Virus record (IMG/VR): IMGVR_UViG_3300031787_000056
Coordinates: 1 to 64,000 of that record
DNA: 64,000 nucleotides
Direction: 5' to 3' (one strand)
Origin: a virus
The notes beneath the pieces were generated by a model, which searched no databases, was not told the DNA's origin, and saw nothing but the letters and a program-made list of their open reading frames with translations. The translations under genes were made by a program, and so were the position numbers. Positions 5,447-39,559 of this stretch are shown piece by piece; positions within the stretch are counted from its first letter, which is position 1; the number at the start of each line of letters is the position of its first letter.

Positions 5447-7360
5447 CTATTTCTGCATGACGTCCGCCAGCGGCACACGCCCAGCGAGGACGTCCTCGAG
5501 CTGCTGCTTCGTCAGTCCCAGCATCGTGCGTGCGGCGTCCTCCATCGCTGGATTGAGGATGGGCCGCGGCAGACGAATGCGGCCCCACCGCTCCCCATTC
5601 AGCAGCCGGTTGTCGAAAAGGCCACCGGGGATCGGTGTCAGGTCGCGAAGATTCACCATCTCGCCGTTTTCGACGTCGATCGGATCGCGCTCGTCCAGGT
5701 CGCCGTCCGTGAATGGCGCGAGGCGATACTTGCCCTTGCCGGAGTTGCGCGTGTTGATGCCGGCGCCCGCCAGCAGCGCGCGGAACTTGTGCCAGACAAA
5801 CGGCTCGCCGATCTTTGGCAGCGTCTTGTCCGTGCGCAGTGCCATCCAGAAGTCGTGATTCTTCTGCCCGCGGATTGTGGCATTCTCCCGCATCAGCGAG
5901 TAGGCCCCGCTGGACAGTGTTGCAAAATTCTCGAGACCCGAGAAGCGCTTGGCCTGCGCGAATTCGCCGCCGCCGCGCGTCGGCTGCTGATTTTGGTCAT
6001 AACTGCCTGTGCCACGGGCACTTACCTTCCCTTCACTTGTATGGTGCAGCTTGTGCACGAAGCCGTAACCCACCGTCACCGGCGCGTCCAGCATCCGGCC
6101 TTCCTCCGGATCGTAGACCATCTCCTGTGACTGCACGCCGTTCTCGCGTTCCAGCTGGTCAATGTAGTCGTTCCAGTTCTGCCCTTTCGGCAGGTAGCTG
6201 GGCAGCTTCAGCGCGCGCCCCAGCTTCTTGGCAACCTTGCCGAGCCGCAGTTCGTGCTGTGACGCCGGGTTCGCCCGGGAGACTAGGGACAGCGGATTGA
6301 GCAGCGCATCCAGCGGCTGTCCGTCCTCCGTCCGCGGCATCTGGTCGTCGGGAATGATCTTCGAGACGGTCGCCTTGGCGCCCTGCCGCAGCACGATCTT
6401 GTCTCCGACTTCCGTCGGCTTTAGAAATTTCAGGACTACCTTGTAGCCGTTCTTGGTCGCGCGCGCGGCGATGACCTGGGCCGGCTGCTGTCCGTGCCAC
6501 ACCTGAGCGGCGTCGCGGCGCTGCTGCCTCAGCGCCTTGCTGAGGCGCCCGATGTTTGCGCCGTCTGACGACAGCGTGCGAGGCATCGTCGCGAGCATGA
6601 CGGGGTCACCAGGCTCCAGCACGGTGCCAGGTCGCACCAGCCCGTGTTCGTCAAAATTTTCCAGCTTCTCCTTGGTGAAGCGGTTCGGGAAGAGGGCGCG
6701 GTAGTGGCTGAGACCTGTCTTCAGATTGTCCGAGCGGTCCTGGTGCATCACCTTGTATTGGACGGCGGACAGGCGCTTGGCGAACGACTCGCTGACAGGC
6801 ATGGCGTCGTCCATTCCGAAGCCCTTGAATGGCACCAGAGCGATGCGGGCGTTCAGCCCCATGTTTTGCACGCCGTTGTCGTCCGTGTAGGACGATGCTG
6901 CCATCATCTGCCCGGGTTTGAAGGTGTCACCTTTCTTGAGCAGTGCACGAGAGGAAATTCCCGATTTCTGATTGAAATACTGCTCGTTGTATAGGTCGAC
7001 GTCCGCCGTCTCGCCGTCATCGTAGGAGACGCGGATGTAATCCGGCGTGACGCTGATGACGCGCCCGGCGCGCTTGGCGCGGACGGCGCCCATGTTCTCG
7101 CCGACGATTTCGTCAAAGCTGCGCCCTTCGGGGTCGGACGTGTCCAAGTTCTGGATCAGCGGAGCTTCGCCCTTGTCGATCGCCAGCGCCTGGTTCGCGA
7201 ACCGCGCGCCGTAGAACAGCCGCGGCGCTTGCACTGCGCCGGCCAGCGGAATCATGTTGGTGTGCGACCCAAACTGCTGCGAGGGCGAGGACAGCTCGTA
7301 ATCGACATCCGGATCGTCATCCGGCACCTCTTCGAGGCGGTTGTTGCGTACGACGTGCAT
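5447..7360 (-). CDS. RNA polymerase beta subunit, C-terminal part, 637 aa
   Basis: This is the C-terminal portion of a bacterial-type RpoB, as a separate gene. Residues 22-60 match the ASLIPFLEHDDANRA region, 183-191 (MDDAMPVSE) the conserved EDAIIVSE, and 319-335 the active-site segment GDKIVLRQGAKATVSK. There K321 and K329 align with E. coli K1065 and K1073, with the same spacing of 8. FVHKLHH (435-440), SARGTGSY (447-454) and RFSGLENFATLSSGAYSLM (472-490) match the RpoB C-terminal clamp and switch-3 region. It should assemble with the other two beta pieces (20262-23099 and 23400-24887) and a beta-prime encoded elsewhere. It sits among virion-type genes, 13 kb from the middle piece. Confidence 0.93.
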   Translation of the reverse strand: MHVVRNNRLEEVPDDDPDVDYELSSPSQQFGSHTNMIPLAGAVQAPRLFYGARFANQALAIDKGEAPLIQNLDTSDPEGRSFDEIVGENMGAVRAKRAGRVISVTPDYIRVSYDDGETADVDLYNEQYFNQKSGISSRALLKKGDTFKPGQMMAASSYTDDNGVQNMGLNARIALVPFKGFGMDDAMPVSESFAKRLSAVQYKVMHQDRSDNLKTGLSHYRALFPNRFTKEKLENFDEHGLVRPGTVLEPGDPVMLATMPRTLSSDGANIGRLSKALRQQRRDAAQVWHGQQPAQVIAARATKNGYKVVLKFLKPTEVGDKIVLRQGAKATVSKIIPDDQMPRTEDGQPLDALLNPLSLVSRANPASQHELRLGKVAKKLGRALKLPSYLPKGQNWNDYIDQLERENGVQSQEMVYDPEEGRMLDAPVTVGYGFVHKLHHTSEGKVSARGTGSYDQNQQPTRGGGEFAQAKRFSGLENFATLSSGAYSLMRENATIRGQKNHDFWMALRTDKTLPKIGEPFVWHKFRALLAGAGINTRNSGKGKYRLAPFTDGDLDERDPIDVENGEMVNLRDLTPIPGGLFDNRLLNGERWGRIRLPRPILNPAMEDAARTMLGLTKQQLEDVLAGRVPLADVMQK

Positions 7361-20261: not shown

Positions 20262-23099
20262 TTAGTCGGGTAGTTTGAGGGTCTTCCCCCGCAGGTTGCT
20301 GGGGCTGACCCACTCCTTCTTACCCGTGCGCCGGTTGACGAGCAACTGATAAATTCGACCGTCAGATCCGACACGGGCGCCGTGCGCCAGTCGGACGTCG
20401 ATGCCGGCTTTTTCAGAATTGCCAGTCCAGTAGCCAGAAGTCCCTTTTTTGCCGCGCACATGCAACTGACCGCCCGGGACAGTGGCGCAGTAGACCAGCC
20501 CGCTGTGCGGCTGTCGGGACCAGTGCGCCTTTGAAATCTTCCGATCTTCGCGGCGCCAGATTCTCACATTGAAATATGGACGTCCGGCTGTTGTCTCGCC
20601 AACCTGCTTCGTGTAGGCCGAGTATCCCAATCCCATCGCCAACCGCTCTACGGATGCTGCAAGTCGCGCAGAGACAGTGCAGTATTTGAAACACTTGCTG
20701 GTATCAGTTCCGTCGCCGCGGATCAACGCATCAAGCATGCGCTGACGCGCTAGCAACGGCGCGGAGAATAGCGCATCCGGGATGTGTTTGTCGAAGCAGC
20801 CGCAGTCCCACTGTCGAAAATAATCGACGAACTGCAGGCCGGTGACGACGAGCGATGTCCCAGTCCCCGCAGCTCCCGGCAGTCCCATACGCCTGAACAG
20901 CGTAGAAATGCGCCGACGATTATCTGGATTTGCGACAGGACATTGGGTGATCGCCACTCGCTGTGTGCGGTGTCCATTTTTTCTTACGCCGTCAAACAGC
21001 GATCCTTCAGAAAGCCACCACCCCATGAATTCGCACCAGTCGCCGATGGTAAACGGCCCATAATGCTTCTGCGCGCTATACTTGCTCAACTTCTCGACCT
21101 CTGGCAGCTCAAAGTGCGTCATACTGGGATCCCCGATTTCCGGCTCGTGACGCGCTGGAATCCATAATGACGCGCCTTCTACTTCGTCCGCAGTCGCTAC
21201 GCTGAAATCCCTGGTGTAGAAGTCGCGCTTGTGGATCACCCTGTGCTGCGGTGTCAGTGCCATACGCAATGTCTTGTGCTCTGCCACGATGAGATCCCCC
21301 TCGTAGTGTTCACGCACAATTCGCTCCGCGGGATGCCACTCGAGTCGACCGTCTATTTTACAGGCAAAAACCTCGTCGTCCGTGACCGCATCCCAACGCA
21401 CCCATCCGCGGCGTGTATAAACCTCGTGATCGGCGGGAATGCATTCCGGCCCCGCGATCGGATCCACGAAGCCGAACTGCGTGGCGCTGACTGCCGTCAT
21501 GTCGTCCGTGATGGCATTCGGGTCGCCGATGCCGCCGGGTCCCATTTTGGTGATGCGACGCTTCTGCTCGAGGATGTGCATCGGGTTGATCTCCTCCAGC
21601 GCTGTGACCAGCGGATTGGACTTGAGGTAGCCCATCGTGTATCCGCCGAACGCGTCCGGGCCCACAGGGTCCAGTGTACGTATGCGGCTCAGCCGTCCCA
21701 TCATCGCGCGCAGGGTATGTCCGTGGTCGAGCTTGACACGCTCGGCCATCAGGCGGTCCACCGTGTGGACGCGGTCGTTCGGCAGGCTGTCGCGGTCGTC
21801 CGTCTCAGCCAGGCCGCGGTTCACGGCCAGCAGCTTCTCGGTGGCAGCCAGCAGGCCGTCGATACCCACCGGCGCATACTTCTCGTGCTCGTCGTCGTCC
21901 GCCAGGTAGCGGTGATGCGCCATGGGCGACTTCATCGGTGCTTTCGGCATCGGCTTCGGAACTCCGATCGGGACGTAGGTCGATGCCGCCTTCGCAAACG
22001 CAGTCGGGCCATAATCCTGCGGATTGGCAAGCTGGTCCTCGTAAATGGGCACCTCACCCATCAATTGCCGAAGAGCGCGCGCCGTCACATTGCCGTGCAG
22101 CGCGTTATCCCGATGGGTCAGGTTGAACCGATCCGCCACCCACTTCCGACGATCGTCAGGCGTCTTGTCGAAATTCCTGATGAAGCCCTGCCGGGTGTTG
22201 AACGTCATGACGTCATCATCCACCAGCTCCACCCGATGCAGCGGCTCATCCTCCTCTGGCTCGATCTCGGGATGTTCCAGCCCCTGCGCGACGAGGTAGG
22301 CGCGCAATTTCTCCAGTGCGACATCAGCGTGCTTGTCCTCCACCGAGGCATGCACATCCCCGGTGTGAGCGTCATTCACGGCCAGGCCCGAAGCTTGCAG
22401 CTCCTTGAGGATCGCGTGCCAGTTCTTCCGCAGCCCCACGCCCTGCAGCTTGTCGCCGGACAGCCGGAAAGTCTTCGCCATCTTTTCCATCGGAAACTCC
22501 AGATACTTCGGATCGATCTTCCCCGTCGGATGGATGATCTGGACGTGCGGCACATCGCCGGCATACCGGCCGTGCCCGGGCTCGAAGTGCTTCCACAGTT
22601 CCTTCGGATTCTTCGCGCGCTCGATGAGCTGCTTGATCTCATCGATCTTCAGGTCGTGATGACGCTGGGCGAGGATCGGCTCTTTCTCTTCGTCCGACAT
22701 GGCGTCCCACTCCTCGTCGCTCAGATGTCCCCACAGTTCCTTCCCTGGGGCCAGCTCGACGCCGTGGAGGCGCGTGTCCGGTGCGTCCCGCAGCAGGGCT
22801 TCGAGATCGATCTGCAGCGGCACAGACTTCCGCTGGTTCATCGGGTGTGTCGCGTCACCCTTGATGCGGTCCGTGTCGGGCTGCCCGAAGAATGCGGACG
22901 GGCCGGCGAACGACGCCTTCCACGGCTCGTCCTTCAGCTTCTGCTCCCGGAATGCCAGCCACTCGTCGGCCGCCTTGCCGGGGCGTGCGAGTTCCAGCAG
23001 GTGCCGGTTCTCGGGCTGCGCCAGGACGTCGCCGGACAGCAGCCCGTGCTCGCGGACTGAGTCCAGCGTTTCTTCAGGGATGTAGGACAGGAGCTTCAT
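20262..23099 (-). CDS. RNA polymerase beta subunit, middle part, with intein (945 aa)
   Basis: The precursor has three parts. Residues 1 to about 300 (opening LSYIPEETLDSVREHGLLSG) do not match RpoB and are an extension of unknown role. Residues about 420-552 match RpoB: LPNDRVHTVDRLM corresponds to GNRRVRSVGEL, and LVTALEEINPMHILEQKRRI and KMGPGGIG to the rifampicin cluster I region. FGFVDPIAGPE corresponds to CPIETPE. At residue 553 a 342-aa intein begins; extein resumes at S895 (SEKAGIDVRLAHG, aligned with GPNIGLINSL) and ends at 945. After splicing the extein is 603 aa. The N- and C-terminal beta parts are separate genes. FAKAAST near residue 375 is a variant of the virion-block motif. 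Confidence 0.92.
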   Translation of the reverse strand: MKLLSYIPEETLDSVREHGLLSGDVLAQPENRHLLELARPGKAADEWLAFREQKLKDEPWKASFAGPSAFFGQPDTDRIKGDATHPMNQRKSVPLQIDLEALLRDAPDTRLHGVELAPGKELWGHLSDEEWDAMSDEEKEPILAQRHHDLKIDEIKQLIERAKNPKELWKHFEPGHGRYAGDVPHVQIIHPTGKIDPKYLEFPMEKMAKTFRLSGDKLQGVGLRKNWHAILKELQASGLAVNDAHTGDVHASVEDKHADVALEKLRAYLVAQGLEHPEIEPEEDEPLHRVELVDDDVMTFNTRQGFIRNFDKTPDDRRKWVADRFNLTHRDNALHGNVTARALRQLMGEVPIYEDQLANPQDYGPTAFAKAASTYVPIGVPKPMPKAPMKSPMAHHRYLADDDEHEKYAPVGIDGLLAATEKLLAVNRGLAETDDRDSLPNDRVHTVDRLMAERVKLDHGHTLRAMMGRLSRIRTLDPVGPDAFGGYTMGYLKSNPLVTALEEINPMHILEQKRRITKMGPGGIGDPNAITDDMTAVSATQFGFVDPIAGPECIPADHEVYTRRGWVRWDAVTDDEVFACKIDGRLEWHPAERIVREHYEGDLIVAEHKTLRMALTPQHRVIHKRDFYTRDFSVATADEVEGASLWIPARHEPEIGDPSMTHFELPEVEKLSKYSAQKHYGPFTIGDWCEFMGWWLSEGSLFDGVRKNGHRTQRVAITQCPVANPDNRRRISTLFRRMGLPGAAGTGTSLVVTGLQFVDYFRQWDCGCFDKHIPDALFSAPLLARQRMLDALIRGDGTDTSKCFKYCTVSARLAASVERLAMGLGYSAYTKQVGETTAGRPYFNVRIWRREDRKISKAHWSRQPHSGLVYCATVPGGQLHVRGKKGTSGYWTGNSEKAGIDVRLAHGARVGSDGRIYQLLVNRRTGKKEWVSPSNLRGKTLKLPD
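20418..21443 (-). other. LAGLIDADG intein inside RNAP beta, 342 aa
   Basis: Block A starts with Cys1 (CIPADHEVYTRRGW). Block B has TPQHRVI (64-70). The homing-endonuclease motifs are FMGWWLSEGSL (139-149) and MLDALIRGDGT (236-246). Block F is GLVYCATVP (315-323), and the C-terminus is WTGN followed by Ser+1. The penultimate residue is Gly rather than the usual His, a variant known in some functional inteins. The boundaries leave an in-frame extein GPE/SEKAGID, which aligns with RpoB without gap. The element should self-splice and may home into intein-less alleles. Confidence 0.92.
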
Positions 23100-23399: not shown

Positions 23400-24887
23400 T
23401 TATTGTAGATCCTCCGGTTTGATGTGTCCCTCCAGCGCCAGCGTCATCAGCTCCCCAGGTCCGGGAGCGTCGTCGGTCTTGGCACCGCGGCCGCGCGCCA
23501 GCTTGGCTAGGCGTTCGCGCTCGGAGTCGTCGAAGTCGTGCCGCTGCATGTAGTGGCGGACATACTCCTTACGGCGGTAGCCTTCCATCTCCTCCTTGAA
23601 GTCTTCCCGCTGCTTAGCGGGCAGCAGCTTCAGCGGGTCGATGCCCCAGTTGACCAGGGCGAACGCGCGGCGTGGTGTCGGCTTGGCCTCGAACTGCGCG
23701 CCGGTCCGAGCCTTGAAACTTTTCCACCTGGCGATCTGCTTCTCGTCTGTCTCGCCGCGGCGACCGGTGTGGTAGTTCTCATACCACTGCAGCCAGCCCT
23801 GCTTGTCGGTGTCGTCCAGCCAGTGCTCCGGCCACGCGCGCATGGACGCAAGGCGCGGACCTTTGCCGCCGTAGATCGCGTTGTAGGACTCCTTGAGTTC
23901 GTCCGGCGTGAAGTCCGGGGAGAACGCCGCGCGCTTGGTCAGCGGCACGTCGAACGATTCCCACTGTCCCCATATCTGTTCGGGCGTGAAGTCAGGATCG
24001 AACGGGACGGCTGCCGCCTTGGTCATGCGGTCGGCTGCGTCGATCGCGGCCCCCGCCATCCTCCAGCTTGCCGCCTTCTCGTGGCTGTAAAGGTTCGGCA
24101 GGTTCTGCTTGAGAATCGACTCCGCCACCTGGGCGCGGTCCAGCGCCGCCCGGATGTCCTTCACGCGGTCCTCCGGCGCGCGCGCTGGGTCGCGCTCCCA
24201 CTTCGGGATCACCTTGTTGTACACGCGGTCCAGCGTGTGCCTCGAATACTTCGCCCGGTTGGCTTCGAGAATCTCCGGCCCCCACCGGCGCGCGAGCTCC
24301 TCGTCCGTCACCCCGAGGTCCTTGAACACCGAGTAGGCGTGCAGGTCCGACGATCCCACCTTGAGACGATACTGCGCCGTGCGCGGGTCGAACGACACCC
24401 GCATGGCCGAGCCGGTGCCGGGGCGCACGTTCAGATGCGTCTCGAGTTCGCCATTGTCCCGGCGTCGCGTGTAGGCCCCAGGCAGCAGGCGCGACTGCAT
24501 GGCTGGGGCATACTCGGATCCGTTCTCGATGAACGTCCCGCGCTCCGTCAGGTAAGGCACTCGGGCCAGCGTCACATTCTTGCGCTCGTCGAGCACCTCG
24601 TTGGTCACGTCGTCCACGAGCCGCATCGTTCCGCGCAGCCGGCGCACGAGCGACTTGTCGTCCAGCAGCGCCTCGCGTTGCTCGGCTTTGGTGAACCTCG
24701 CCGGACCGACATACTTCATGTCTTTCAGCTCCAGCCGGACTCCGCCGTAGGCGTAGCCGTTGACGTAGCGCTGCATGGACTGCATCACAGAGGTATCGAT
24801 CGCCTCCCGCGTGGCGTCGGAATCTTCCGGGTCGCGAAGCGTGACGCCTTCTGGCGGCTCAGGGATGTCGGAGGATGGGTTCGGCAC
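23400..24887 (-). CDS. RNA polymerase beta subunit, N-terminal part, 495 aa
   Basis: Residues about 75-210 match the RpoB N-terminal protrusion and lobe: VPYLTERGTFIENGSEYA corresponds to IPLMTDKGTFIINGTERV, SRLLPGAYTRRR to LHRSPGVFF, and VFKDLGVTDEEL to LLRALGYTTEQI. The start is GTG at 24887, with a leader GTAGAACCACAAC and no Shine-Dalgarno. Residues 285-460 are an added region with two FxPDFTP[ED] repeats and a GWLQWYENYHTGRR motif, followed by KQIARWKSF. EKAAS and TKAAA variants of the virion-block motif occur. The protein must pair with the two other beta parts to make a full subunit. Confidence 0.92.
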   Translation of the reverse strand: MPNPSSDIPEPPEGVTLRDPEDSDATREAIDTSVMQSMQRYVNGYAYGGVRLELKDMKYVGPARFTKAEQREALLDDKSLVRRLRGTMRLVDDVTNEVLDERKNVTLARVPYLTERGTFIENGSEYAPAMQSRLLPGAYTRRRDNGELETHLNVRPGTGSAMRVSFDPRTAQYRLKVGSSDLHAYSVFKDLGVTDEELARRWGPEILEANRAKYSRHTLDRVYNKVIPKWERDPARAPEDRVKDIRAALDRAQVAESILKQNLPNLYSHEKAASWRMAGAAIDAADRMTKAAAVPFDPDFTPEQIWGQWESFDVPLTKRAAFSPDFTPDELKESYNAIYGGKGPRLASMRAWPEHWLDDTDKQGWLQWYENYHTGRRGETDEKQIARWKSFKARTGAQFEAKPTPRRAFALVNWGIDPLKLLPAKQREDFKEEMEGYRRKEYVRHYMQRHDFDDSERERLAKLARGRGAKTDDAPGPGELMTLALEGHIKPEDLQ

Positions 24888-32851: not shown

Positions 32852-33000
32852 AGGAGCGTGCCGTCGCCGCGGATGTCGCCGAACTGGAGGGCATACACGC
32901 CCACGAAATATGGGTCCGTGGTGCCGTAGCTGCTCTGGCACGCCTCGGCCCCTGCCTCGCGCAGCATGATGTTGCCGAGCTCGATCAAGGTCTTGTTCAT
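32824..33000 (-). CDS. Small hypothetical protein, 58 aa
   Basis: ATG at 33000 overlaps the DNA polymerase stop by 4 nt. It has two Cys and a helical N-terminus (MNKTLIELGNIMLREAGAEA). Its last codons form part of the promoter-like element for the next gene. No domain recognised. Confidence 0.65.
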   Translation of the reverse strand: MNKTLIELGNIMLREAGAEACQSSYGTTDPYFVGVYALQFGDIRGDGTLLAKAQPAVS

Positions 33001-36000
33001 GGGTTCTTCGGTTGATGCAGTCCAGCGAGCGTCAGCAACTGCGGATGCGTCTCCAGGAAACTCCACTTGGATGTCGCCGGGTGCCACGTGCGATCGTCCA
33101 ACTGCTTTTGCTCGTCCCTGCTCGGACGCGTGGACCAGCGGTAGTTGAACTCGTTGTCGATGGAGTATTTCAACGTCCGCTTGCCCTGCTCGTCATCGTA
33201 GTCCCAGGTGTTGATCTCCGACATGCAGAGCGTGTGCAGTCGAGCTGCGAGGAACCGCTCTTCCAGCGGCGCCAGCGTCACCACCGAGTCGTAGAGACAG
33301 ATCATCGGTCGGGACCTCATGCCGAGCCGGCGGTAGGCCTTCAGCAGCCAGTTGCACGCTCGCGCCGAGGTGCTTCCGACGGATTCTTGCATCGGAAAGT
33401 TCTTTAATTCACGTCCCAGGGCGCTGTCGATCGAGTTGCGCGTGCGCCAGCCTACGCCGCTGCCGGCCGAGTGCGTGAGGCAATGACGGATGCGCCCGGA
33501 CGCCGCCCGATACATCCCGCGCTCCTTCGGCACCCTGGCCATCTCTTCCAGGAACTCCGTCGCCCGCGGTTGACGCTCACGGATTGCCTCCAGTCCGCGC
33601 TCACCGGTGCCAGGCTCCGGCTTGACGCCGGTGACGGCCTCGATCTGTCGCTCCAGGGAATTTTCAGAGGCGCCGTATGCGCTGCTGAAATTTATGACTT
33701 TTCCAGCATTTCTATGAATTTTAGCTTTCATAGTTTCCCGGTAACGCCCGTAGGTGCTCTCGACCAGCGACCAGTGGATGTCGTAGCGCGTGTGAACTAC
33801 GGCGCCGCTCTCGTCCCGCAGCAGATCGCTCTCTTCGACCTTGCCGAGACACACACCATCGGCCCACGCGCGCATCAGAAAGTCCGGGTTCTGTGCGCTC
33901 TCCGGAATGCCGGAGGTCTTTGCGTCAGTGAACGCCACGCGCACCACAGTCGCTCCGTGCATCTTGCTCTTCAGCTTCGCCCACTCTGGATCCGGATCGA
34001 ACAGGATGCGCATCAGATCCTTGTCCCCGGAGATCATCGCCAGCGCGACCATCTCGGCCGTGACGTAATCGCTCTCGACCAGTATGTAGCCTTCCGGAGC
34101 CCGCACGCACGACCGTATCGACGGCAAGTCGTCTGCGTCCTTGTCGACCCATCGCAGCAGATTCTCCGGCAGGTCGCCTTCCTCGTGGGTTTCTTTCACG
34201 CATCGCGCCACGGACACCGCGATGCGCTTGTTCACGAAGCTCGGCCAGTTGAGGACGTTTGGGAAAAACGTACGCGGCCGGCCTGTCTCCGTCGATGAGG
34301 TCTGCGGATGGATGCAGCCGTCGCTCTGCAGCCACAGGTGCAAGCCGTTCTCCTCGATGACTTCCTCCCCGGTGTCCTCGTCGATCTCGATGGTCGGCTC
34401 CTTCAGGAACGCCTTCGACAAGTTGCCGACGGCGTTCAGGTTCAGAAGCTCGTCGATGGCGGGCAGCCGCTCCGAGAGAATCGCGAGCGTCTGCTTGTCC
34501 ACCGCGGGCTTGTAAAGCGACTGGCGGTCCTCAGGCAGCTCCAGCACTTTCTCCCACGCCATGGACGGCAGGCCCTTGGCCTTCTGGTTGGTGGACTTGA
34601 TCGGGACGAGCTCCTCGAAGTCGAACAACCAGCGCACCATCTGGTCGGGAGACCGGATGTTGAACGCCGGGGAATCCTCCCAGTGGGCGATCCATTTGTT
34701 CCACTTCGGCACCTCTGCGAGCTTGCCGGCGTCGAGCAGCATCTGCTTCACCTGCGTGCGCAGCAGCTCGCCGTCACGCGCCACGATCGCCGGCAGGCAC
34801 AGCTTGGTCGCCGCGACACCGAACGCCTTAATGAGCTTCGACTTGAGCTTTGACTCCGCCTCCGCAGCCACCCGTCGCTTGAACGTCTTGTCCAGACGCA
34901 GCTTCGCAAAGGTGAACAGGTGACGCAGGTCGTCCATCATCGAGATGTCCATCGGCAGCCCGGTCATGCAGAACTCGACGAACACGTCCGAGGAGAACGG
35001 ACCGAACATGTCGCGGTAGTAGGCCCACAGCCGCTGCGCCTCCAGCTGCCGCTTGATCAGCGGGTAGGCACGATACGGCGTGATGACGTCAGCCGCAGCG
35101 TAGGGATGCAGGATGGCGCTCGGGATGAAGCCGTAGCCGCCCTTGCAGAGATCCTTATTCTCGCGCTTCCACATGACGAGCTCTTGGTCGTATCGACCCA
35201 GGCTCGTGTATTGCATCGCGATGCGCTCCAACCCGAGGTCCGAGCTTTCGTCGGAAACCTGCTGCGCGAACTCCGTGTCCATCTCCAGCTTCCCGTAGGT
35301 CTCCATCCCGAGCCAGTGCTGCATCCACGGAGCATCCGCCGGGAAGTGGTGGCCGATGTAGCGGACGCCGATCTTCGTGAAGGTGCTCTCGATCGGTCTG
35401 CCGACGGCAGCGTAGCGGGACCTGTCGAAACAAGCGACGAGGAGATCGTCCTTAATCTTGTGCTGCAGCGCGGGAGTGCACGCCTGTCCGATATATTTCT
35501 TCAGCGTTGCCTTCATCGCGTCGGGATCGAATGAATCACCGTTGCGGTTGGTGCCGAGATGCTCACACCGATCTTTTCCGCATATGACGCACGGGTCTGT
35601 CCTGAGCCTGAACATTAGCGACACGGCGTCGCGAGCACCTCCCGGCGTGCCTGGGTCGTATCCGATCAGCTCTGGCGCACCAGTCTCGAAGCTCCACTCA
35701 CCCTTCTCGTCCCGGAACTCGATCACCACGGCTTCGGTTTCCGACCAGGCGAACTGGATGGTGCGCAGCTTGCCGTCGATGTGCGTCTTGCCGTGCCACT
35801 CCGCGTCCACCGACACGAGCGGGTTGCCGTGCTCGTCCTTGAGTCCCGGCCAGCGGTCCTCCTCGACAAGCGTCTCCAGGTGGCTGAGCCAGTCCTCCAG
35901 TTCGTCCATGTTGCGAATCACCTGATGCGTGAAGGTCTGGCCGACGATGTTACCGCCGTTGTCCAGGATCTCCTTGCGCCGGGCCACCTCCTTGAAGTCG

Positions 36001-36614
36001 ATGCGGAACATCTCGTAATACTCCGGCTTGCCGACCAGAAGCGACGGCGCATACATCACGTAGAGGTGCGCCTGGTGATCCTCTGACCAGAACCAGCAGC
36101 CGTGGGCGTCATCGAAGCTGATCTTCTGCGGGCTGAGCATGTCGAACACGTGCTTGCCCAGGCAGACGATGATCTTCGGTTTCACGCGGGCGATCTCGTC
36201 CTCGAGGATCGGCATCCCCCACTTCATGATCTTCTTCGCCGGCTTCGACCGCTGCGCGCGCGGCAGCAGCCACTTGCAGCACGCGGTGTAGTAGCACCGC
36301 TCCATGTCGATTCCGGCCCGCAGCGCCACGTCCTTGATGATGCCCGTGGACCCTTTCAGATACTCGGCCGGCTGCGGGATTCGCATGCCGAACACCGAGG
36401 TGGCCGCGGTCGCCGCCTCGTCCTCCTCAAGGGAGGACGTGACGAACATGATGTCGTATTCCTCCTGCTTGTCCACCAGTGCCCGGCCTGCGACGTAGAG
36501 CACGCCGTCGATGTGCCGAGTCTTGGTCAGTGTCCGTGGGCACTTCGCAGCTTCGTCGTAGGGAGGCTGCAGCTCCTCCAGTGTCCGCCCGCGGCGGGAT
36601 GGTGTGTCGCTCAT
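32997..36614 (-). CDS. DNA polymerase I family with N-terminal UDG-like domain, 1205 aa
   Basis: Residues about 35-215 resemble a family 4/5 uracil-DNA glycosylase fold: YYTACCKWLLPRA, PKIIVCLGKHVFDML, and VMYAPSLLVGKPE where the usual HPS motif has Ala for His, so catalysis is doubtful. A DEDD exonuclease follows (VSVDAEW, D280 and E282). The polymerase domain has motif A (SDYVTAEMVALA, Asp and Glu conserved), motif B (RNAGKVINFSSAYG, a full R-x3-K-x3-F-x3-YG) and motif C (CLYDSV, with Tyr for His). It is the likely replicative polymerase. UDG-like domains on phage PolA proteins are, as I recall, known from SPO1-like phages. Start 36614 overlaps the preceding stop. Confidence 0.92.
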   Translation of the reverse strand: MSDTPSRRGRTLEELQPPYDEAAKCPRTLTKTRHIDGVLYVAGRALVDKQEEYDIMFVTSSLEEDEAATAATSVFGMRIPQPAEYLKGSTGIIKDVALRAGIDMERCYYTACCKWLLPRAQRSKPAKKIMKWGMPILEDEIARVKPKIIVCLGKHVFDMLSPQKISFDDAHGCWFWSEDHQAHLYVMYAPSLLVGKPEYYEMFRIDFKEVARRKEILDNGGNIVGQTFTHQVIRNMDELEDWLSHLETLVEEDRWPGLKDEHGNPLVSVDAEWHGKTHIDGKLRTIQFAWSETEAVVIEFRDEKGEWSFETGAPELIGYDPGTPGGARDAVSLMFRLRTDPCVICGKDRCEHLGTNRNGDSFDPDAMKATLKKYIGQACTPALQHKIKDDLLVACFDRSRYAAVGRPIESTFTKIGVRYIGHHFPADAPWMQHWLGMETYGKLEMDTEFAQQVSDESSDLGLERIAMQYTSLGRYDQELVMWKRENKDLCKGGYGFIPSAILHPYAAADVITPYRAYPLIKRQLEAQRLWAYYRDMFGPFSSDVFVEFCMTGLPMDISMMDDLRHLFTFAKLRLDKTFKRRVAAEAESKLKSKLIKAFGVAATKLCLPAIVARDGELLRTQVKQMLLDAGKLAEVPKWNKWIAHWEDSPAFNIRSPDQMVRWLFDFEELVPIKSTNQKAKGLPSMAWEKVLELPEDRQSLYKPAVDKQTLAILSERLPAIDELLNLNAVGNLSKAFLKEPTIEIDEDTGEEVIEENGLHLWLQSDGCIHPQTSSTETGRPRTFFPNVLNWPSFVNKRIAVSVARCVKETHEEGDLPENLLRWVDKDADDLPSIRSCVRAPEGYILVESDYVTAEMVALAMISGDKDLMRILFDPDPEWAKLKSKMHGATVVRVAFTDAKTSGIPESAQNPDFLMRAWADGVCLGKVEESDLLRDESGAVVHTRYDIHWSLVESTYGRYRETMKAKIHRNAGKVINFSSAYGASENSLERQIEAVTGVKPEPGTGERGLEAIRERQPRATEFLEEMARVPKERGMYRAASGRIRHCLTHSAGSGVGWRTRNSIDSALGRELKNFPMQESVGSTSARACNWLLKAYRRLGMRSRPMICLYDSVVTLAPLEERFLAARLHTLCMSEINTWDYDDEQGKRTLKYSIDNEFNYRWSTRPSRDEQKQLDDRTWHPATSKWSFLETHPQLLTLAGLHQPKNP

Positions 36615-36916
36615 ACTGGTTTGATCTCCGGCTGGCTCGCCTGGAACTGGCGCCTGGCTTCGAGCAGCGTGTCCAAGGATTTCCGATCCCATGCGCCGTG
36701 CGTGGCCTCGATCTCGTTTTCGTGCCACTGAATAGCATCGTCGATATGCAGATACATCGTCTCGGATTTCCCGAACAACGCGATCGGGATGCCGTCAACC
36801 AGGAGACTGAGAATGTGCATCCCCGCATACTTAGCCTTCACGTAGAGTTTTCCCTCGCATTGCGTGTATGGTGTTCTTCTTGATCTGGATTTTGTATTCG
36901 TAGGTCGGTTACTCAT
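36611..36916 (-). CDS. Hypothetical protein, 101 aa
   Basis: Overlaps the polymerase start by ATGA and the upstream stop likewise. Basic N-terminus (NTKSRSRRTPY), a beta-rich centre (KLYVKAKYAGMHILSLLVDG) and a helical end. No family recognised; cotranscribed with the polymerase. Confidence 0.7.
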   Translation of the reverse strand: MSNRPTNTKSRSRRTPYTQCEGKLYVKAKYAGMHILSLLVDGIPIALFGKSETMYLHIDDAIQWHENEIEATHGAWDRKSLDTLLEARRQFQASQPEIKPV

Positions 36917-38524: not shown

Positions 38525-39559
38525 TTAGTAAGGTATCCTCAGCTCGTCGAGCACTGCGCGGTATCCCCAGTCATCAAGCGCCGCTGCGTGCATTTTCGGG
38601 TTCCGGGTCTTCAGGTCCTGCATGGTGTTCAGCGTTCCTTCCTGTGCGCGTGACCTATTTCCGAACATACAAGTCACGCAGCCCGAGCCGCCGCTGAGGG
38701 TGTCGGGCCGGATGACGTCGATGCCGCGGGTCTTCAGATAGGTCGCGACGTCGTCGTCAGTCCAGAAGGCCAGCGGATTGGAAATCCACAAGCCGCCGAG
38801 CTTCGACGCCTGGTAGAGCGCGCCGCACGTGATCCACGCCAGGCGGCGCGCGCGGGACTCTGCGCAGCGCACGCCGGTGAAGTGACCGTGCACGCCGACC
38901 TCCTCGTCCCACTTCTTCATCGGCTTCTTCTTGAGGTAGTCGCAGCACTTCTCGGTGATCTTCAACCCCTTCTCCTTGGCGCGTCGGAACTGCTCATGCA
39001 GATCTTCCGGGACGTGCGCGGGTATCTTGTCGCTCTTGGACGCTGCGAACTTCCGATACTTGTAGGCGAGCAGCTTGCTCCAGAGCGGTACGCCGATCTT
39101 CGGCCACAGGTCCTTCGGTCGGATGTCGGGGAACACCTGGTGACACTCGACGCCGCGCTCCGCCAGCCACTCCTTCCACTTCTTGAACATCTGCAGCGTC
39201 TCCGGATACTCCATGCGCGTGTTGCTCATGACGTGCGGGATGTGCCGGATACCCATGTCCTCGACCATCAAGTGTGACAGCGCCGTGCTGTCCCGCCCGG
39301 CGGAATAGCTGACGGCCCACTTGAGATCGGGGTGATTGGCCAAGGACAGCTTGATAACCTTGCGGGCGTGCATCAGCTTGTCCTTGAAGGGCCGGTTGAT
39401 GCCGGCCTGCAGTGTCTGGGCGCGATCGATGATGTGCGCCTTCTGCTCAGGCGTCTTGCTGGAGTTGTTCCAGAACGCCATCCTGGGCAGCGTCACCAGT
39501 TCGCAGTCCGTGGCGTCGCGCACCTTGAGCAGGACTTCGATCAGTTCGTTATCGATCAT
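38525..39559 (-). CDS. PAPS-reductase-like PP-loop enzyme, second copy type, 344 aa
   Basis: PP-loop SYSAGRDSTAL (84-94), then a central region with CCDYLKKKPMKKW, GVRCAESRARRL and FWTDDDVATYL. A C-terminal Cys motif GCVTCMFG resembles PAPS reductase/FAD synthetase-type proteins. It differs strongly from the enzyme at 1159-2220 in motif spacing and length, so the two are not recent duplicates. Possible roles include nucleotide or base thiolation or sulfur assimilation; the substrate is unknown. It lies between the PIF1-like helicase and small genes. Confidence 0.85.
   Translation of the reverse strand: MIDNELIEVLLKVRDATDCELVTLPRMAFWNNSSKTPEQKAHIIDRAQTLQAGINRPFKDKLMHARKVIKLSLANHPDLKWAVSYSAGRDSTALSHLMVEDMGIRHIPHVMSNTRMEYPETLQMFKKWKEWLAERGVECHQVFPDIRPKDLWPKIGVPLWSKLLAYKYRKFAASKSDKIPAHVPEDLHEQFRRAKEKGLKITEKCCDYLKKKPMKKWDEEVGVHGHFTGVRCAESRARRLAWITCGALYQASKLGGLWISNPLAFWTDDDVATYLKTRGIDVIRPDTLSGGSGCVTCMFGNRSRAQEGTLNTMQDLKTRNPKMHAAALDDWGYRAVLDELRIPY

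Follow-up and report, generated by a model that had tools for sequence, protein, structure and literature searches.

A predicted self-splicing LAGLIDADG intein in a phage RNA polymerase beta gene

Inteins in RNA polymerase genes are known from eukaryotes, chloroplasts and giant viruses. In nuclear genes of eukaryotes, LAGLIDADG-type inteins are inserted at highly conserved sites of second-largest-subunit homologues such as Bde RPB2, Cre RPB2 and Ddi RPC2 (Goodwin, Butler and Poulter 2006, PMC1635734), and 12 RpoB inteins are listed for the plastid genomes of green algae (PMC5784728). Giant viruses of eukaryotes carry inteins in their own polymerase genes, including EhV and PrV RPO-a (PMC1635734) and the polymerase genes of Bodo saltans virus (BsV; PMC5871332). 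Phage inteins occur in other genes, annotated as terminase, thymidylate synthase, methyltransferase and nucleotidyltransferase, and in gyrA of Staphylococcus jumbo phages (PMC10638138). No intein in a phage beta subunit was found in searches restricted to open-licence PMC papers (including PMC7765530, PMC8393795, PMC12386605, PMC7886860, PMC6690015, PMC7824862, PMC13282480, PMC7412058, PMC6502327, PMC3990103 and PMC6293099).

The locus described here lies in a 64,000-nucleotide stretch of viral DNA (the window; IMG/VR record IMGVR_UViG_3300031787_000056, positions 1 to 64,000). A preliminary description had proposed that a complete 342-aa LAGLIDADG intein splits a phage RNA polymerase beta subunit at the position of E. 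coli E565/G566, and this observation is confirmed. The 945-aa precursor ORF (20262-23099, minus strand, as are all features below) consists of an N-extein of 552 aa (21444-23099), the intein (20418-21443) and a C-extein of 51 aa plus stop (20262-20417) that starts with Ser+1 (SEKAGID). The intein begins with Cys1 (CIPADHEVYT, 21414-21443) and contains splicing block B, TPQHRV (residues 64-69; 21237-21254), a first LAGLIDADG-type motif, MGWWLSEG (residues 140-147; 21003-21026), a second, LDALIRGDGT (residues 237-246; 20706-20735), and splicing block F, VYCATVPGG (residues 317-325; 20469-20495). It ends in YWTGN (20418-20432), with Asn342 immediately before Ser+1.

Near relatives encode the uninterrupted protein. 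Loci L004, L005 and L006, whose N-extein is 98% identical, read ...VDPIAGPESEKAGID... across the junction and are 603 aa in all. The three are one genotype, identical over 12 kb, and a second empty genotype is found at L027; only these two independent empty genotypes are known in this split-beta clade. At the DNA level the insert lies between GAG (GAA in the window) and TCT, and in the 45 bases compared on either side the window and the empty allele differ by two substitutions and no other gap. The junction aligns with E. coli E565/G566: phmmer pairs query residues 410-563 with E. coli 419-576 (the end taken as ungapped, as it is in the Taq alignments), E. coli rpoB reads T563-P564-E565-G566, and a multiple alignment also places the site at 565/566. 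No insert-free homologue aligning at a different junction was found. The preliminary description assigned this segment to the rifampicin pocket, to which residues 563-572 probably belong.

The extein, however, is not a whole beta subunit. In this phage beta is split into three ORFs (N-terminal, 23400-24887, 495 aa; middle, 20262-23099; C-terminal, 5447-7360, 637 aa) that align with the single beta ORF of Salmonella phage Arash at 49-235 (E 4e-21), 270-469 and 483-1104 (E 1e-88), respectively. NCBIfam rpoB PRK00405 matches the N-terminal, middle and C-terminal pieces at E 6e-9, 7e-11 and 2e-47. The C-terminal fragment, which keeps GDKIVLRQGAK, also matches Pfam Rpb2_6 (E 4e-45) and phrog_24349 (E 1e-49), while Pfam Rpb2_3 in the middle piece stays below its cut-off (19.3 against 21 bits). 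NADFDGD of beta′ is present in a close relative (G001). Only residues about 391-603 of the spliced protein are beta-like, 391-552 of them in the N-extein (21444-21929); residues 1-390 form a further domain not seen in the shorter middle-beta ORFs of L007, L008 and L009. An AlphaFold2 model of the isolated middle beta fragment (from L004) reached only pLDDT 55 and pTM 0.24 and was not used. The earlier placement of the gene in a virion block rests on a weak portal match nearby (phrog_146, E 0.02) and on the portal gene lying two genes from beta in phage Arash.

Identification of the insert as an intein rests on motifs, predicted fold and context. No Pfam family reaches E 1 for the intein alone, NCBIfam gives only weak matches to intein-bearing families (best E 0.003), and phmmer finds no intein in the PDB. 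PHROG 85 (thymidylate synthase, a family with inteins by its matches) nevertheless matches the first 70 or so intein residues at E 3e-6. The AlphaFold2 model of the intein (pLDDT 84, pTM 0.85) matches the whole inteins TliVMA (Foldseek E 7e-16), PhoVMA and PI-SceI, as well as PI-PfuI and I-DmoI (E 3e-6, TM normalized to the target 0.63), consistent with a Hint splicing domain and a monomeric LAGLIDADG endonuclease. An intron was rejected because the frame runs through and because of the protein motifs and protein fold. The penultimate residue is Gly rather than the usual, though not universal, His. The preliminary description took this Gly, with the intact endonuclease motifs, to suggest activity; by itself it is no such sign, but 55 of 58 complete family members end in GN, which is therefore the family's usual state.

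The case is also not single. Two intein-based scans gave 82 viral loci, of which 75 on 74 contigs (59 distinct) lie in RpoB homologues, at nine E. coli-equivalent sites; the other seven were dropped because their flanks are not RpoB, all judged by eye from the flanking residues. One intein matched over its first 69 residues only was left out, and 40 of the 58 complete inteins lie at 565/566. Among the 58, 55 have Cys1 and 3 Ser1, and 55 carry a [TS]PxHR motif. A scan of genome contigs for cellular carriers gave 9 pattern hits and 0 relatives, although it only reaches members with one of two short motifs. Among part of the records matched in isolated phages by the precursor and by two family inteins (L107 and L125), none is annotated as RpoB, and some have no annotation. 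Two unannotated hits (L135 in LR756508 and L136 in Lak-A1) have flanks not recognized as RpoB when read with table 11.

These data argue strongly against a dead insert or chimeric assembly in a pseudogene. The carriers found are metagenomic contigs and one related intein (L152) has a +1 residue that should not splice, yet the frame is uninterrupted, an identical insert occurs in a second record (L002, possibly the same virus or sample), and 40 distinct inteins occupy this very codon. An artefact is thus very improbable.

Interestingly, the same codon is found in several states: full-length inteins with both motifs (the window and L003), a 256-aa intein with one motif (L028), inteins of 159 and 145 aa without endonuclease (L008 and L009), and empty (L004 and L027). 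L003 and the empty L004 agree at 5997 of 6000 bases upstream and 5989 of 6000 downstream. The aligned extein stretches of the window and L003 are 99% identical, while their inteins are only 49-52% identical; for L094 and L163 the values are 89% and 35%. This discordance is not complete, as extein and intein distances are still correlated (Mantel r 0.34, 0 of 2000 permutations as high, 45 loci), so that transfer is limited or inheritance partly vertical. Three of 48 loci were left out of the extein tree, two with a second intein in the N-extein and one with a short C-extein. Base composition is no consistent mark: the window intein has 57% G+C against 64% in its N-extein, but the L009 intein is richer than its locus.

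It is possible, though unlikely, that the intein splices but is no longer mobile, with a degenerate endonuclease and a presence/absence pattern reflecting occasional loss and ordinary recombination between phages. Parts of the endonuclease region are modelled with low confidence (residues 119-124 and 153-158 under 50), and relatives with decayed or absent endonuclease exist at the same codon. However, both acidic motif residues are present, and LSEG is the commonest first motif among 43 loci. The pair L163/L096 shows a dN/dS of 0.09-0.14 in the splicing and endonuclease parts, as low in the one as in the other, although dS was saturated or large for 7 of 8 pairs. Furthermore, the presence of very different inteins in 99%-identical exteins suggests recent gain.

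The most probable interpretation, held with high confidence, is that this is a class 1 (Cys1) intein with a LAGLIDADG homing endonuclease in the middle fragment of a split phage beta. Splicing, cleavage and homing are inferred. In this model, the 945-aa precursor folds, Cys1 takes the N-extein by N-S acyl shift, Ser+1 receives it, the terminal Asn cyclises, and the flanks are joined to the 603-aa protein that intein-free relatives encode directly; only then can the fragment take its place in the polymerase core. When two related phages meet in one cell, the endonuclease would cut the empty allele and repair would copy the intein in, with later decay of the endonuclease leaving mini-inteins. 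Phage beta can host the intein, in this view, because it carries Ser where cellular beta has Gly566. Empty phage sites mostly have Ser at 566, a possible splice acceptor, and Ser is found at +1 in 40 of 40 distinct inteins at 565/566. One locus whose match stops at what looks like an intein at another site was left out of the +1 count. In contrast, 79 of 79 cellular loci checked, all proteobacterial, have Gly; one further cellular locus does not reach the site.

A regulatory role, in which splicing delays or gates polymerase assembly (for instance until a stage of infection or a redox state) and has been kept for that, appears very doubtful. The site lies in the polymerase core, so an unspliced fragment could hardly assemble normally, and the interrupted piece must also join two other beta pieces. 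Yet near-identical phages do without the intein, 69 of the 79 loci that reach the codon in the second extein-based scan have no intein there, and nothing in the data shows conditional splicing.

Intriguingly, in six distinct cases with Gly566 the intein sits one codon later. A broader hypothesis, about as likely as not, is that phage RpoB genes support their own dedicated intein family, with at least nine insertion sites in the active-site region and most inteins at E565/G566. The site would be open in phages through Ser566 and closed in cells that keep Gly. Where a phage keeps Gly566, the same inteins would sit one codon later, as a rule before a Ser567, through a shift that happened more than once, and the inteins would act as weapons or markers in competition between phages that carry their own polymerase. 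The locus points to a large reservoir of mobile inteins in phage-encoded RNA polymerases, poorly covered by Pfam, at a codon that cellular polymerases appear to keep closed by having Gly. With occupied, differently occupied, endonuclease-free and empty alleles in one phage lineage, some in nearly identical genes, it offers a good natural system for testing homing, intein decay and phage competition, and a source of new inteins with Ser acceptors for protein engineering.

Compared with the systems introduced above, inteins in other phage genes give distant sequence matches, at about 21-28% identity in part of the records, the thymidylate synthase of Corynebacterium phage P1201 among them. The chloroplast inteins share a bacterial-type RpoB as host. 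The eukaryotic inteins share a homologous host protein, LAGLIDADG type, a fork-domain location for Bde RPB2 and Ddi RPC2, and Gly-Asn ends in Cre RPB2 and the Phaeosphaeria intein, but Cre RPB2 and Ddi RPC2 have Cys at +1 (PMC1635734). The Bde and Ddi inteins lie at columns 843 and 853, which would correspond in the yeast sequence to V/CPAETPEGQA and A/CGL; by this inferred mapping the phage site would fall at column 850, between the two and possibly not allelic with either. Giant-virus inteins share a virus-encoded RNA polymerase as host and, between EhV strains, presence/absence, while RPO-a lies in the hybrid-binding domain at column 1516. Endonuclease-mediated competition between viruses has been proposed for BsV, whose polymerase inteins are described as seeming to lack an active endonuclease (PMC5871332).

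The minus-strand ORF at 20262-23099 encodes a protein of 945 aa, of which residues 553-894 constitute a 342-aa insert bearing Cys1, TPQHRV, MGWWLSEG, LDALIRGDGT, VYCATVPGG and a Gly-Asn end before Ser. Three relatives with 98% identity in the N-extein (loci L004, L005 and L006) have the same protein without the insert, 603 aa in length. At the DNA level the insert sits at GA(A/G)|TCT, and in the 45 bases compared on either side the window and the empty allele differ by two substitutions and no other gap. The presence of an intein at the site proposed in the preliminary description, between the equivalents of E. coli E565 and G566, is near certain, while splicing and mobility are likely but inferred.

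The interrupted middle ORF matches RpoB (NCBIfam PRK00405, E 7e-11 over residues 413-552), and the intein-free L004 protein matches PDB RpoB chains with a best E of 1e-9, although Pfam Rpb2_3 falls just below its cut-off. The last residue of the N-extein, E552, falls on E. coli E565. Beta is split over three ORFs, at 23400-24887 (N), 20262-23099 (middle) and 5447-7360 (C; Rpb2_6 E 4e-45), the C piece lying about 13 kb from the other two. Against the single beta ORF of Salmonella phage Arash these align at 49-235, 270-469 and 483-1104, respectively; in Arash, one ORF holds both beta and a YDGD motif like that of beta′. The C piece retains GDK...AK, a stretch that probably belongs to the active site, and the relative G001, which has an empty beta site, has a beta′ with NADFDGD, so that a working polymerase is likely; G000 itself, a fragment, gave no beta′ match. 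Interestingly, in the beta′ ORF of G001 (L177:1751-4882), NADFDGD is followed by an insert of roughly 640 aa with matches to LAGLIDADG_3 (E 2e-6) and Intein_splicing (E 4e-5, under its cut-off), ending in VILSN before TMSVHVP. Although its start is unclear, this is probably an intein in the other large subunit, at the catalytic loop. The first 390 aa of the middle ORF are not beta-like (weak DUF7167) and are missing from the shorter middle-beta ORFs of loci L007-L009. Elsewhere in the window, a 1243-aa protein (32997-36728) combines uracil-DNA-glycosylase, 3′-5′ exonuclease and family A DNA polymerase matches in one chain, and two PAPS-reductase-like proteins are encoded at 1159-2220 and 38525-39559.

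The same codon was found in many states. An extein-based scan gave 74 loci, eleven of which have the split-beta layout, where the ORF ends 51 aa after the site. Of these 11, 7 carry inteins and 4 are empty, while none of the other 63 shows an insert at this codon. The seven are L002/L022 (identical to the window), L003 (355 aa), L007 and L026 (339 and 335 aa, Ser1), L028 (256 aa, one motif), and L008 (159 aa) and L009 (145 aa), the last two without endonuclease. L004, L005 and L006 are identical over 12 kb and therefore count as one empty genotype; L027 is another. Strikingly, L003 differs from L004 at only 3 of 6000 bases upstream and 11 of 6000 downstream, yet has a 1065-base intein. The window and L003 share 99% of the aligned extein stretch but 49-52% of the intein, and comparison of the window intein and exteins (as L092) with those of L120/L131 gave 84-85% identity for the exteins and 25-26% for the inteins. 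Over 45 intein-bearing loci the two distance sets still correlate (Mantel r 0.34, 0 of 2000 permutations as high), so movement is likely but not unlimited.

An AF2 model of the intein, built from seven sequences, reached a pLDDT of 84.3 and a pTM of 0.85. Foldseek comparison of this predicted fold with the PDB returned the TliVMA intein (E 7e-16), PhoVMA, PI-SceI and PI-PfuI, and then I-DmoI for the endonuclease. In the one pair of inteins with small dS (L163/L096), dN/dS is 0.09-0.14 in both the splicing and the endonuclease part. L026/L007 gives 0.10-0.14 (NG86; 0.06 by YN00 in the splicing part) with an NG86 dS of 1.0-2.4, and the other six pairs are saturated or have dS near 2 or more.

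Scans of IMG/VR with two intein alignments gave 43 and 75 loci, or 82 different loci in all. By their flanks, read by eye, 75 (on 74 contigs) lie in RpoB homologues and 7 do not. Of the latter, six (L167, L168, L170, L171, L172 and L175) are an intein-like (Hint-like) domain after GGGGDMYK in a protein of unknown function, without the GN end in the matched stretch, and one is unidentified. The 75 fall into 59 groups at 95% identity. Among 58 complete members, the E. coli-equivalent sites are 513/514 (2), 539/540 (3), 548/549 (1), 562/563 (2), 565/566 (40), 566/567 (6), 1066/1067 (1), 1073/1074 (1) and 1077/1078 (2). The inteins at 513/514 (L160 and L161) probably lie inside the main rifampicin-resistance stretch. 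Of the 58, 55 start with Cys and 3 with Ser, and 55 end in GN; the +1 residue is Ser in 56, Cys in 1 and Met in 1. This last case (L152, at GPEG/MNIGID) should not splice normally. Two RpoB ORFs, on the contigs of L096/L158 and of L104, carry two inteins each. No relative was found in a scan of one genome for each of 84,980 bacterial and archaeal species, within the reach of two short motifs. Because the scans started from this intein, they cannot tell how many unrelated inteins sit in other phage genes.

Why phages host these inteins may be explained by the residue that follows the site. Splicing needs Cys, Ser or Thr at +1, and in E. coli this residue is Gly566. It is likewise Gly in 79 of 79 cellular RpoB loci that reach the site, although this control is narrow, as the 80 loci were fetched as the best matches to an E. 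coli stretch and are proteobacterial by their titles; Taq and three further bacterial-type sequences also have Gly. Some records filed as phages (L017, L021, AFYI01000006 and AGRM01000005) carry what looks like bacterial rpoB, in L017 with rplJ and rplL beside it, and thus appear to represent bacterial DNA in phage records. In phage beta, by contrast, the residue is mostly Ser: 48 of 52 distinct empty sites of the first scan (3 Gly, 1 Asn), and 52 of 55 distinct empties among the best 80 of at least 556 loci of a second extein-based scan (2 Gly, 1 Asn), where distinct means not letter-identical around the site. In the second scan, 10 of the 79 loci that reach the codon (6 of 61 distinct) have an intein there, and the 80th, L245, seems to have one at another site. 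Intriguingly, in six distinct loci with Gly566 the intein sits one codon later, in 5 of 6 before Ser567. These six do not form one clade (AU test p 1.7e-11), although a FastTree of the same data had been inspected beforehand, the starred branches alone do not force more than one origin, 14 of 55 inner branches have support under 80, and three mini-inteins fill under half of the columns. In the same tree the two 562/563 inteins, before a Ser563, nest among 565/566 ones at modest support. Thus, the same inteins appear to follow the available Ser, the boldest point of this analysis and one that rests on sequence alone.

Inteins as such are known, whereas the allele, the host class and the size of the family are new within the literature searches made, in which no paper seen describes an intein in a bacteriophage multi-subunit polymerase beta. 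The crAss-like phages have many inteins and disrupted polymerase ORFs (PMC7886860), but their polymerase is of another architecture. Inteins in RNA polymerase second-largest subunits are known from giant eukaryotic viruses (PMC1635734, PMC5871332), from green algal chloroplasts (PMC5784728) and from eukaryotic nuclei (PMC1635734), and the nearest nuclear sites, tentatively placed by inference from a published legend, seem to flank the one occupied here.
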